Assembly: GCA_015345905.1 (NCBI GenBank)
Contig: JADDTR010000018.1
Span: forward strand, 496,361 to 560,360
Origin: Aotearoamyces nothofagi
Taxonomy: Eukaryota; Ascomycota; Leotiomycetes; Leotiales; Tympanidaceae
DNA: 64,000 nucleotides
Direction: 5' to 3'
Part shown: one piece after another, positions 11,734-19,984 of the stretch
Position numbering within the stretch: the first letter of the stretch is position 1
Layout: every line of letters starts with the position of its first letter
Notes under the pieces: generated by a model
Seen by the model: only the letters and a program-made list of their open reading frames with translations
Database searches by the model: none
Told to the model about the DNA's origin: nothing
Translations under genes and position numbers: made by a program

Positions 11734-13467
11734 TCACTTATAGTGCTTGCGAACGGTTGCTTCCTGAATGCCCATGGTCGGAAAATTCTTCCGCTCGTCC
11801 TCTTTTTGGAATGTAAGCTTTTGATATGCTCTTCCCTTCCGACGCTTGGCTGCTATGAAGTCGGGGAGAGCAAGCTCATCTGCAGAGCTTACTACTTCTT
11901 CGACATCTCGTACATCTGTGGTATCTGCAAGGTCCTTGGAACAAGGGTTTAAAGTTGACAGGTCTCCGTTAGCATACTCTTTTAAAAGAGTACTTGTAGA
12001 GTCTCCATCAAGCCGCGACCTCTGGGAATCATAGTCATCTATAGCAGCCTTAGACAATGATTCAACCCCGGCCTTGCCCGCTGTGCTATCTAAGGCAGGG
12101 TGCGCTTTGAGGGATAAGGGGTCACAGCTTATGCTCCTAGCCTTTTCATTTGCAGTGGAGATAAACATGTCGCGTTGTTCCTTCGCCCAATCTCTGGCAT
12201 TTCGAAAAGCTGTAGCACCCTGCCGAAAGGCCTCAGAGGTACCAGTCATGTCCCAGCCGCTGAGATATGTCATATGATACTCCGGCGGCTGATTGGGATC
12301 AACTGGTTTAGAAGGATGAGATGTATACATCTTGAGATTACCGTTCTGATATGTTGATGTTATCACATAGGCGTTATCGAAAGTTAATACACCTGTACCA
12401 TAGGATTGTAGTTGCTGCATGGCTCGAGCACCCACAGCGCCGTTGTAGCAAGCCTGCCGTTTTGCCACTGCACCAGAGCCATCTGGCCCTTTTGCCTCTA
12501 GATAGAAATTTGGCACCATTGGCTTGTCTTCCATAGTCGATGGGATTATATAGCTACCAAGCATGTTGCGGACACGGCGGTCAAGTTCTTCAGCTCGAGA
12601 GCCATAGTATAGGTCTGGTGTAGCGGCGACTATAGTGTTGTCTGTAAGTGGTTCGAGATTGCTGAATTTTGTATTCCTGGCCCAAAAGTAATTATTTTGA
12701 TCTGCACTTGAGATTATAGGAATAATGTCAATAGCTATATCGTCCTCATCCTTCGCTCGGGAATCGGTTGTCCGAAAGTCTTTAAATGCAGACTCGGAGA
12801 ACTTCGACGGCGAAAGTGAAGGTCTCGGATTTGCTAGAGTATTGGTTATCTCATCCATGTTTTCAGGTGTCTGTGCTCTGTTTTCCAAGAATACACCATG
12901 ATCGATGAGATTCTGTTCGAAATTACGGTTATAAGGCGTAGTCCTCCGGCTACTAGTTGTTGTCCTCCGTCGCTTAGAGCTGGACTGGCTTGAGCTAAAG
13001 TCACGTTTAGACTCCTGGTACTGATTAAATACAGCGATTAGCGATAGACCTATTCTGCATTGAAGAATAATACGCACTCCTCTCATGTCTGTCAAGTCTG
13101 GGCCACCTCGTCTAGCGAAGGCCTTGATTTCTAGTTCAGAAGCCTTCGACCAACAAGTAGTTAAATAACGTTGGATACTTTGTTTTGGGTTACAAACGGC
13201 GGCTCGTGTACGTGGACGTGGTGTCCTGATTTTAGAAGCAGACTGAGCGTTTCTCCGATCCAGCTCCTCCAGAGCCTCATGCGTCAAGAAGATTCGGGAT
13301 AGCCCGTCCCAGAATGCTGGCGGTGGACGATGTACAGCGCGATGGATGTCTTCTGTTGACTTAATTCTTTTTGCTGGCTGCGATGAATATGAATTGCTAG
13401 GTGACAGATTTACCTCCCTGTAAAGTCTCTTTCGACGCGGTGGTATGCTTTCACCACTGCTAGACAT
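11734..13467 (-). CDS. DUF7924-type protein, possible PD-(D/E)XK fold
   Basis: The frame is open from 13467 to 11734 without interruption (577 residues), but it contains a likely 57-base in-frame intron at 13021-13077 (GTGCGT, GCTAATC branch, AATCAG) whose removal gives DMRG-YQESKRDFSSSQ and 558 residues. The conserved core is TPDLYYGSRAEELDRRV, then STMEDKPMVPNFYLEAKGPD, then an MQQLQSYG helix and a C-terminal FRNARDWAKEQRD helix, which I recall from a large multi-copy family in Helotiales and other Pezizomycotina. Asp266, Glu305 and Lys307 (spliced numbering) have the D...ExK spacing of PD-(D/E)XK nucleases; this is my inference. N-terminus basic and probably nuclear. The first ATG in frame is at 13467. 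No known role. Confidence 0.7.
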   Translation of the reverse strand: MSSSGESIPPRRKRLYREVNLSPSNSYSSQPAKRIKSTEDIHRAVHRPPPAFWDGLSRIFLTHEALEELDRRNAQSASKIRTPRPRTRAAVCNPKQSIQRYLTTCWSKASELEIKAFARRGGPDLTDMRGVRIILQCRIGLSLIAVFNQYQESKRDFSSSQSSSKRRRTTTSSRRTTPYNRNFEQNLIDHGVFLENRAQTPENMDEITNTLANPRPSLSPSKFSESAFKDFRTTDSRAKDEDDIAIDIIPIISSADQNNYFWARNTKFSNLEPLTDNTIVAATPDLYYGSRAEELDRRVRNMLGSYIIPSTMEDKPMVPNFYLEAKGPDGSGAVAKRQACYNGAVGARAMQQLQSYGTGVLTFDNAYVITSTYQNGNLKMYTSHPSKPVDPNQPPEYHMTYLSGWDMTGTSEAFRQGATAFRNARDWAKEQRDMFISTANEKARSISCDPLSLKAHPALDSTAGKAGVESLSKAAIDDYDSQRSRLDGDSTSTLLKEYANGDLSTLNPCSKDLADTTDVRDVEEVVSSADELALPDFIAAKRRKGRAYQKLTFQKEDERKNFPTMGIQEATVRKHYK

Positions 13468-14305
13468 TGAGATGATCAAGAGGTAAATGGAACAGGGAAG
13501 AGATCATGCGATTTAGGCAAAGAGAAGATGCCGAAGTGTTTGAAGGGAGTTCGAGGGTGTAAATATGATTGGGTAGCCGTATCCCGTACCCCGTCTGAAT
13601 TTGTCGCCGTACAGCTTGAAGAGAGCTTCATCATTATGCCAAGAAAGTTCCTAGTGAATGGTTAGCGTGCGGAGCGTGCATCGATCCAGCTGCCCACAGA
13701 GATTTACCTAGCTTGGGAAAAATTGCGCGGCTCCAATTCTGTAGAGACTCAGGTAGGCATAGAATTCCCAGTGGATAATGCAGTTGTATGTCCTAAGCAT
13801 GCTTTCTACCTAAGAACGCTCAGACCCGATGTTGATGCCTCGGCGCCTAAGACCCTACAGCTCCACGCGCCCGCCTACTTTAGCTTAAACACCTCCAACC
13901 TTCGGTACATCGGGCTAACGAATAATGCGGAGTATCGTTACGCCGTCGGACCCTTTGATATAGGAATGCCCGGACGAAACAACCCGTTGAAGAATTGAAT
14001 GTATAAGATATTTTTGTAATCTGGCCAATTGACCGCCGGCGATCCGAAATGTAGTTCATAAGGTTATTCAAGGAGAAGGATTGTAAAGTCACAACAAGTA
14101 GAGCAGCACTTGAATTATTCATAAGACACCTTGAGATTCTACATCTAAGATGATGCCCTGGGCAGAGGGCCGGGTGCCCAGATGCAGCGCTCGCGCCCAT
14201 CCTTCCCCCTTGATCCTCTAGATCCACGGATGCATCCGTTATTGAAAATCCGACTCCAAAAATATTAGCATATTTCCGACTAGCTCTATCCAGACAACTC
14301 GTCGA
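13468..14305. other. Intergenic, DUF7924 gene to NtaA-type gene
   Basis: 838 bases: the promoter of the DUF7924 gene and the 3' end of the NtaA-type gene. A 91-codon frame at 13723-13998 starts on a non-ATG codon and resembles nothing I know. Nothing else seen. Confidence 0.5.
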
Positions 14306-19437: not shown

Positions 19438-19840
19438 ATGTTTTGTGTTTCTAGATATATGAGCTATATATATGGAGTTCACTGTTATCGCTCGTTTGGA
19501 GATCGAACTTGACAATTTCTTGTAAATTAATTTAAGTCTTGCTAGATTTTTATACATGCACGTATGATATAACATCGGATTTAAAACCCAAAAGTAGAAT
19601 AATCGTAGCAGAACTTGAAAAAGTAGAAATTAAGAGCTTCTATTGAACGCTATCAAATACTAATGTATTTTTAAGATAATTGTTAATTCTCAGCGTCTTT
19701 ATCTCCTACTGCTTTTATCATACTACCATATACACCCCATCGCAAGCAGCGCACACGCACTGACACCGCTCGCCAATTTTGAGGAAAAACCGTTGCCATA
19801 ATCATAAGGTTAAATAAGCCCATCCTCTCCAACAATAGCA
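19438..19840. other. Intergenic, upstream of tRNA-Trp
   Basis: 403 AT-rich bases: the 3' flank of the monooxygenase and the 5' flank of the tRNA gene. A TAAATAAG element lies about 30 bases before the tRNA. No gene seen. Confidence 0.5.
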
Positions 19841-19966
19841 GGACTAGTGGCGCAACGGTAGCGCGTTGTAAGTACATCTCAAACAACGATCATCTCCAAC
19901 TTATTCTAACACATCATATAGCGACTCCAGATCGAAAGGTTGTCCGTTCAAATCGGGCCTGGTTCA
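19841..19966 (+). tRNA. tRNA-Trp(CCA) with a non-canonical 54-base insert
   Basis: Exon parts 19841-19867 and 19922-19966 give a 72-base tRNA. Acceptor stem GGACTAG pairs fully with CTGGTTC (one G-T), D-stem GCGC/GCGC with loop AACGGTA, anticodon stem TTCGA/TCGAA (five Watson-Crick pairs), loop CTCCAGA with anticodon CCA at 19927-19929, variable loop AGGTT, T-stem GTCCG/CGGGC with loop TTCAAAT, discriminator A. A-box (TGGCGCAACGG) and B-box (GTTCAAATC) are both good. The two halves of the anticodon stem are separated by 19868-19921, between positions 28 and 29; nothing is inserted at the normal eukaryotic site 37/38. The insert boundaries cannot slide without breaking the stem. Decodes UGG. 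Confidence 0.88.
19868..19921 (+). other. Spliceosomal-type intron inside the tRNA-Trp gene
   Basis: 54 bases that must be removed to form the cloverleaf. They begin GTAAGT (perfect donor), contain TTCTAACAC 12-16 bases before the end (perfect fungal branch site) and end CATATAG. Length, AT content and branch-to-acceptor distance match the protein-gene introns of this window (45-60 bases). The expected mechanism for a eukaryotic tRNA intron, a bulge-helix-bulge cut by tRNA endonuclease at 37/38, is not evident here. Confidence 0.75.
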
Positions 19967-19978
19967 ATCCCAATTATC

Positions 19979-19984
19979 TTTTTT
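19979..19984 (+). terminator. RNA polymerase III terminator of tRNA-Trp
   Basis: A run of six T residues 12 bases after the discriminator base, the normal place and length for a Pol III stop. Confidence 0.8.

Follow-up and report, generated by a model that had tools for sequence, protein, structure and literature searches.

Spliceosome-type introns outside position 37/38 interrupt a tRNA-Trp gene and at least 14 other tRNA genes of Aotearoamyces nothofagi

In the fungus Aotearoamyces nothofagi, a gene for tRNA-Trp is interrupted between nucleotides 28 and 29 by 54 bases that carry the signals of an mRNA intron, and the same kind of interruption recurs in at least 14 further tRNA genes of this genome. 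Judged from their sequences, these inserts are, with a probability of about 85%, short U2-type spliceosomal introns that lie outside position 37/38 in precursor tRNAs made by RNA polymerase III (Pol III) and that would be removed by the major spliceosome. With tRNA-Trp and at least 14 other tRNA genes interrupted by mRNA-type introns, the mRNA-splicing machine of this fungus probably has tRNAs to splice.

In a passage of a 2026 review (PMC13149111), tRNA splicing is treated as a process separate from the spliceosome, and eukaryotic tRNA genes are described, in an excerpt of PMC8450103, as limited to one intron. Non-canonical eukaryotic tRNA introns are known from nucleomorphs and a red alga, according to parts of PMC4090602, the main text of which does not contain the word stem "spliceosom." A search of the open-access literature, which covered titles and the openings of abstracts, found no report of nuclear tRNA genes with spliceosomal introns.

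The Interrupted tRNA-Trp Gene

The tRNA-Trp gene lies on the forward strand of the window, i.e., the 64-kb stretch of DNA that was analyzed (C18:496361-560360), in a genome of 25.5 Mb and 55 contigs. For two proteins encoded in the window, metagenome proteins were the best matches, at identities of 70% and 74%; high-ranking named matches included proteins of two Leotiomycetes, Stipitochalara longipes (69%) and Coleophoma crateriformis (69%), consistent with an ascomycete host in or near that class. A long open reading frame on the minus strand (11737-13503) had a weak match to DUF7924 that fell under Pfam's cut-off.

Exon 1 of the tRNA gene (19841-19867, nucleotides 1-28) holds the 5' strand of the acceptor stem, the D arm and the first two bases of the anticodon stem, and exon 2 (19922-19966) holds nucleotides 29-73, including A73. 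Joined, they form a full 72-nt tRNA-Trp(CCA) with a complete cloverleaf, which is recognized by ARAGORN and in the drawing of which every stem pair is standard or G-U; the CCA anticodon (19927-19929) and A73 of a functional-type tRNA-Trp are both present. The original prediction held that the tRNA is intact only when the 54 bases between positions 28 and 29 (19868-19921) are removed, that the boundaries cannot slide and that position 37/38 is clean, and each of these claims was borne out. When all excisions of 40-85 bases were scanned, this one was the single best for the cloverleaf; moving both boundaries together by 1-6 bases in either direction altered the joined exons every time; and ARAGORN found no interruption at 37/38 of the spliced sequence. 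The locus is easily misread, as ARAGORN named it Trp after excision and, with introns allowed, falsely called the unspliced locus tRNA-Pyl. Runs of ARAGORN and of Rfam (gathering cut-off) over the whole window reported no tRNA.

The insert begins with the 5' splice site GTAAGT (19868-19873) and ends with the 3' splice site ATAG (19918-19921), and between them lies the branch-site motif CTAAC (19906-19910, within TTCTAAC), the likely branch A of which, at 19909, is 12 nt before the intron end. Scored on GTAAGT, TTCTAAC and ATAG, the insert ranks at the 94th percentile of a set of 79 candidate mRNA introns from the same genome, which are predicted introns that join open reading frames, were themselves picked by splice-like motifs and include 27 inside the window. 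Among 7330 random GT..AG pieces of the window, 0.04% scored as high. The length of 54 nt lies within the 5-95% range of the mRNA candidates (46-93 nt), and the likeness to protein-gene introns that had been noticed in both signature and size holds on both counts. The insert is not due to chance.

Fifteen Interrupted tRNA Genes at Ten Positions

Scanning the whole genome with the Rfam tRNA model (RF00005), for which 63 of 791 candidates were scored, gave at least 36 matches, 31 of them above the cut-off and several partial; the partial matches, once read, revealed the same intron architecture again. The census was then widened with patterns for the T arm and the D arm, one pattern listing covering contigs C1-C7. 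Most pattern matches were judged on the matched letters alone. Among the loci that were retrieved, 28 were excluded as not tRNA (24 by eye and four since the scan gave no cloverleaf), and in one further search five of six matches were excluded by eye. A scan for GT-branch-AG pieces revealed the locus L030 as a tRNA-Ala(AGC) gene with an intron and also settled the reading of L072. Among the 49 genes assigned, at least 15, at loci spread over 13 contigs, carry a spliceosome-type intron and 34 do not, so that roughly 30% of the tRNA genes identified are interrupted in this way.

Tandem tRNA-like copies at L118 and the loci L086 and L092 make up four loci without a convincing reading and were kept outside the 49. 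The two tandem genes of L118 (C19:381350-381880) are a few hundred bases apart, and each carries about 80-95 extra bases close to the anticodon loop. At L086 (C9:146060-146340, minus strand), good acceptor, D and T arms are followed by a T6 run, and a long extra stretch without a clear anticodon lies in the middle of the gene. No tRNA-Phe or tRNA-Asp gene was assigned in this incomplete census, though both must exist; they may be hidden by introns in the T arm or A box, or may simply have been missed.

The introns of the 15 genes occupy ten different sites and never 37/38, so that none of them has the position of a canonical tRNA intron. The sites are 8/9 in Gln-UUG, 9/10 in the second copy of Leu-AAG, 10/11 in Cys, 13/14 in Arg-UCG, 18/19 in Thr-UGU (L031) and Lys-CUU, 19/20 in Gly-CCC, 24/25 in initiator Met and Ala-AGC, 51/52 in the second copy of Asn and in Ser-AGA, and 53/54 in Arg-CCU; 28/29 is used three times, in Trp, His and the second copy of Ser-GCU. 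We presume the Met gene to be the initiator from its A1-U72 pair and the three G-C pairs of its anticodon stem. Recurrence of sites exceeds chance, with six coincident pairs among the 15 genes against 1.46 under the null (P = 0.007). Comparison of the first 13 introns found no common sequence beyond matches of 9-14 bases, which gives no sign of an introner family, and the idea that the introns are copies of one element was set aside for these 13. The introns may stem from repeated gain at favored sites or from old gains that have diverged past recognition. Reverse splicing, which had been proposed as the origin of the tRNA-Trp intron, was neither favored nor contradicted by the data.

Splice Signals, Cloverleaf Controls and the Endonuclease Alternative

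All 15 introns, as read, have GT..AG ends with the 5' splice site consensus of the host, the reading for His not being the top cloverleaf excision. Their lengths are 50-76 nt, compared with the 46-93 nt that span 5-95% of the mRNA candidates. In the 13 introns measured, the branch A lies 9-12 nt from the intron end (median of the mRNA candidates, 12), and the branch motif is also present in Ala-AGC and Arg-UCG. The 13 tRNA introns that were scored range from the 8th to the 95th percentile of the 79 motif-picked mRNA candidates, and each of them beats at least 98.9% of the 7330 random GT..AG pieces.

A control scan that excises any piece of 40-85 bases, ignores splice signals and scores only the resulting cloverleaf placed the GT-branch-AG piece among the top excisions in 14 of the 15 genes, with 1-24 excisions tied per gene. 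Ties were numerous in Thr (24), Lys (23) and Gly (15) because the D loop allows the cut to move. The sole miss was His, for which the top excisions lie at shifted positions and score 59; excision according to GT-AG scores 55, with T27.T43 left mismatched. For Ala-AGC and Arg-UCG, which had been found by the signal-aware scan, the splice-blind scan is the independent test. With the letters of the introns shuffled, the GT-branch-AG piece was never among the top excisions (0/180 runs). None of the 34 ordinary tRNA genes gave a cloverleaf on removal of any GT-branch-AG piece of 45-90 bases, a control limited by the fact that only eight of the 34 hold such pieces (72 in total). ARAGORN returned the expected isotype for all 15 spliced sequences and for none of the unspliced ones, among which it reported nothing in nine and a wrong name in six (e.g., "Arg" for Ala-AGC). 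That chance or an assembly artefact accounts for such a pattern is extremely unlikely, given the 15 separate loci on 13 contigs, the splice signals at the top excision in 14 of them and the shuffled runs. The spliceosomal-type reading first made for tRNA-Trp stands, and the 14 other genes lend it more weight.

Canonical 37/38 introns resemble the inserts described here in that they interrupt nuclear tRNA genes, and the two kinds co-occur: nine of the 15 interrupted genes hold an additional ordinary insert at 37/38 and would thus need ordinary tRNA splicing too. They differ in position, and it is the A. nothofagi inserts outside 37/38 that bear the GT, branch and AG signals. Ectopic bulge-helix-bulge introns, as found in archaea, nucleomorphs and Cyanidioschyzon, also lie outside 37/38 and are sometimes accompanied by a second intron, according to sections of PMC4090602. 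If the A. nothofagi inserts were of this type, they would be cut by the tRNA endonuclease at unusual sites. The occurrence of non-canonical tRNA introns in some eukaryotes (parts of PMC4090602 and PMC3978253) and the heavy use of 37/38 inserts in this genome, read in 28 of the 34 ordinary genes, lend this alternative some plausibility. The strict bulge-helix-bulge geometry, however, with a 4-bp central helix and 3-nt bulges, was found in none of the 13 genes tested (all except Ala-AGC and Arg-UCG), even with both cuts slid together by up to 3 bases, and all 15 introns as read have GT..AG ends and a branch motif, neither of which the tRNA endonuclease needs. Removal by the endonuclease, which had been named as a possible refutation, is very unlikely.

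Signals of Probable Pol III Transcription

The DNA around the interrupted genes has the look of Pol III genes. A motif, AAATAAGCGAA, located near -28, was learned on 27 ordinary tRNA genes (L030 excluded), 24 of which pass it; we take it to resemble the TATA-like element of tRNA genes in fission yeast. By eye, this element is often accompanied by a TATATA-like stretch farther upstream. Of the 15 interrupted genes, 11 have the motif at p < 0.05 (combined p = 5e-18), and Lys, Ser-AGA, Leu-AAG and His show no significant match. In tRNA-Trp, the matching element is AAATAAGCCCA (19812-19822, at -29; p = 0.0006 vs. 8000 random window positions). Downstream, 14 of the 15 genes have a T-run that begins no more than 40 nt away. 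Some of the genes were found by patterns that require a T-run; it is present in all nine genes that were found as RF00005 matches, for which none is needed. By comparison, TTTT occurs within the next 40 nt of 11% of random window positions. The candidate terminator of tRNA-Trp is a T6 run (19979-19984) 12 nt 3' of the tRNA.

The internal promoter is also legible in the unspliced DNA. The A box of tRNA-Trp, TGGCGCAACGG (19848-19858), matches the consensus at 8/8 positions both spliced and unspliced; its B box region, CGTTCAAATCG, covers nucleotides 52-62 (19945-19955), and the best B-box match anywhere in the gene is 9/10 spliced and 8/10 unspliced. In the unspliced DNA of 13 genes, the best matches are 7-8/8 for the A box and 8-10/10 for the B box, and in all 13 tested both boxes are matched within one position. 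This preservation is no better than that expected of random insertion (four positions lost vs. a null mean of 3.66 in the 13 genes), so we rejected the idea that insertion sites were chosen to spare the A and B boxes. Selection against TTTT within the introns was likewise set aside: TTTT occurs in one of the 15 tRNA introns vs. 19 of the 79 mRNA candidates, which is in the right direction and not significant (p = 0.12). The one exception is the intron of tRNA-Thr(UGU), in which TTTT lies shortly after the 5' splice site; it should trouble Pol III and makes this gene a natural test case for Pol III read-through.

That TTTT, the normal coupling of spliceosomal removal to RNA polymerase II (Pol II) and the four genes without a significant upstream element are what can be said for Pol II transcripts, arising by read-through or from promoters of their own, spliced in the ordinary way and trimmed at the ends later. 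Against such transcripts stand the element of ordinary tRNA genes in 11 of the 15, the nearby T-run in 14, including the nine found without a T-run requirement, and the A and B boxes of the 13 genes tested, and we consider a Pol II origin unlikely. Among the three routes that had been offered for tRNA-Trp, i.e., the spliceosome acting on a Pol III transcript, a Pol II-made tRNA and an unknown cut-and-ligate route, the first fits best, because the upstream element and the T-run are shared with ordinary tRNA genes and because U6 genes of the same genome have introns.

Introns in the U6 Genes

According to passages of PMC8917221, the U6 gene of S. pombe, transcribed by Pol III, has a spliceosomal intron. 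In A. nothofagi, both U6 matches above the Rfam cut-off, two weaker matches being left aside, hold a GC-AG intron before the ACAGAGA region: L121 (C3:1443380-1443560, minus strand) and L122 (C1:1441060-1441260). The introns, GCAAGT...CACTAACAATTATCAG and GCAAGT...TTACTAACAATTACTAG, are 48 and 47 nt long and lie between GAAACG and ATACA, and upstream of them lies what is presumably a U6 5' half resembling the S. cerevisiae one. Over the 30 nt of exon 1 that were compared, the two copies are identical; the introns, aligned without gaps, mismatch at 19 of 47 positions, and one is a nucleotide longer than the other, as expected of introns. Such an intron is easily missed, since Rfam takes its sequence as the 5' end of the RNA; a reading of these genes as intron-free, based on match length, was wrong for this reason. 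In L122, ACATAGA stands where ACAGAGA is expected, and this copy may be dead.

The U6 introns indicate that the spliceosome of A. nothofagi probably already handles a Pol III transcript. The tRNA introns share with the U6 introns of fission yeast and other fungi the combination of a Pol III transcript and a spliceosomal intron; they differ in that the host of the latter is itself a spliceosome component, whereas here the hosts are 15 tRNA genes with introns at ten positions. Spliceosomal introns are also known from rRNA genes of ascomycetes, for which PMC11889510 cites Cubero 2000 and lists Bhattacharya 2000. These too interrupt non-Pol II transcripts in related fungi, and they differ in that the transcript is rRNA made by Pol I.

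On the reading that we prefer, spliceosomal introns in Pol III-made precursors, the precursor would be transcribed from the usual tRNA promoter, and the major spliceosome would recognize GTAAGT, CTAAC and AG by intron definition. The intron would leave as a lariat, with no need for a cap, as for the U6 intron of fission yeast. RNase P and tRNase Z would finish the tRNA, the order of the steps being our assumption, together with the tRNA endonuclease and ligase in those genes that have a 37/38 intron too.

Paralogs and the State of the Interrupted Genes

The interrupted copies might instead be dead genes or relics of insertion, with intact copies supplying the tRNAs. In accordance with this, a review (PMC4090602) treats tRNA genes of eukaryotes that have odd insertions as mostly pseudogenes, intron-free paralogs with the same anticodon exist for Asn, Ser-GCU and Leu-AAG, and the genome has another tRNA-Trp-like gene (L097). 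The differences between these paralogs, however, are mostly paired. The Asn copies differ by two base pairs in which both bases are changed and pairing is retained, and one of these pairs (50-64) spans the intron; the Ser-GCU copies differ by five such pairs and by one more in which a single base is changed; the two differences between the Leu copies fall outside the checked pairs. Neither copy has lost pairing at any pair that was checked, and some of the divergence may be older than the intron. Between Gly-CCC and Gly-GCC (L016), eight pairs are changed on both sides and none is broken, a comparison not counted because the anticodons differ.

For tRNA-Trp, the presence of other intact genes had been named as a possible refutation. 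BLAST with the spliced tRNA-Trp as query matched the Trp locus alone. A second, weaker candidate does exist, and that condition applies in part: L097 (C8:688320-688560, near 688460; 46.8 bits in Rfam) is tRNA-Trp-like with a 12-nt insert at 37/38, but, as read, it has C73 and an A31.C39 mismatch. The letters that we take to be those of eukaryotic tRNA-Trp in the D arm, anticodon loop and T loop are present in the window gene and not in L097.

In the incomplete census of 49 assigned genes, 11 of the 15 interrupted ones, with initiator Met, Cys and His among them, have no companion of the same kind; the CAT anticodon of initiator Met is shared with an elongator Met gene (L008). Together with the cloverleaf regained on excision in all 15 and the paired changes in the paralogs, this makes it very unlikely that the interrupted copies are dead. 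The mature tRNAs are presumably functional.

Implications

Under the spliceosomal reading, it is likely that a large share of the tRNAs of A. nothofagi, among them those encoded by the single initiator Met, Cys and His genes found, can arise solely through action of the spliceosome on Pol III transcripts, and that introns were gained repeatedly in tRNA and U6 genes, in some cases more than once at one site. Because such genes escape tRNA finders or are given the wrong name, further cases may lie unseen in other fungi. The short, well-understood genes and their intron-free paralogs would provide a natural system for tests of intron gain. If the reading is true, the spliceosome of this fungus works in bulk on uncapped, structured Pol III precursors, and the separation of tRNA splicing from the spliceosome would be broken by fifteen genes in one fungus. 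Translation in A. nothofagi would then depend on the spliceosome through the supply of tRNAs as well as that of mRNA.
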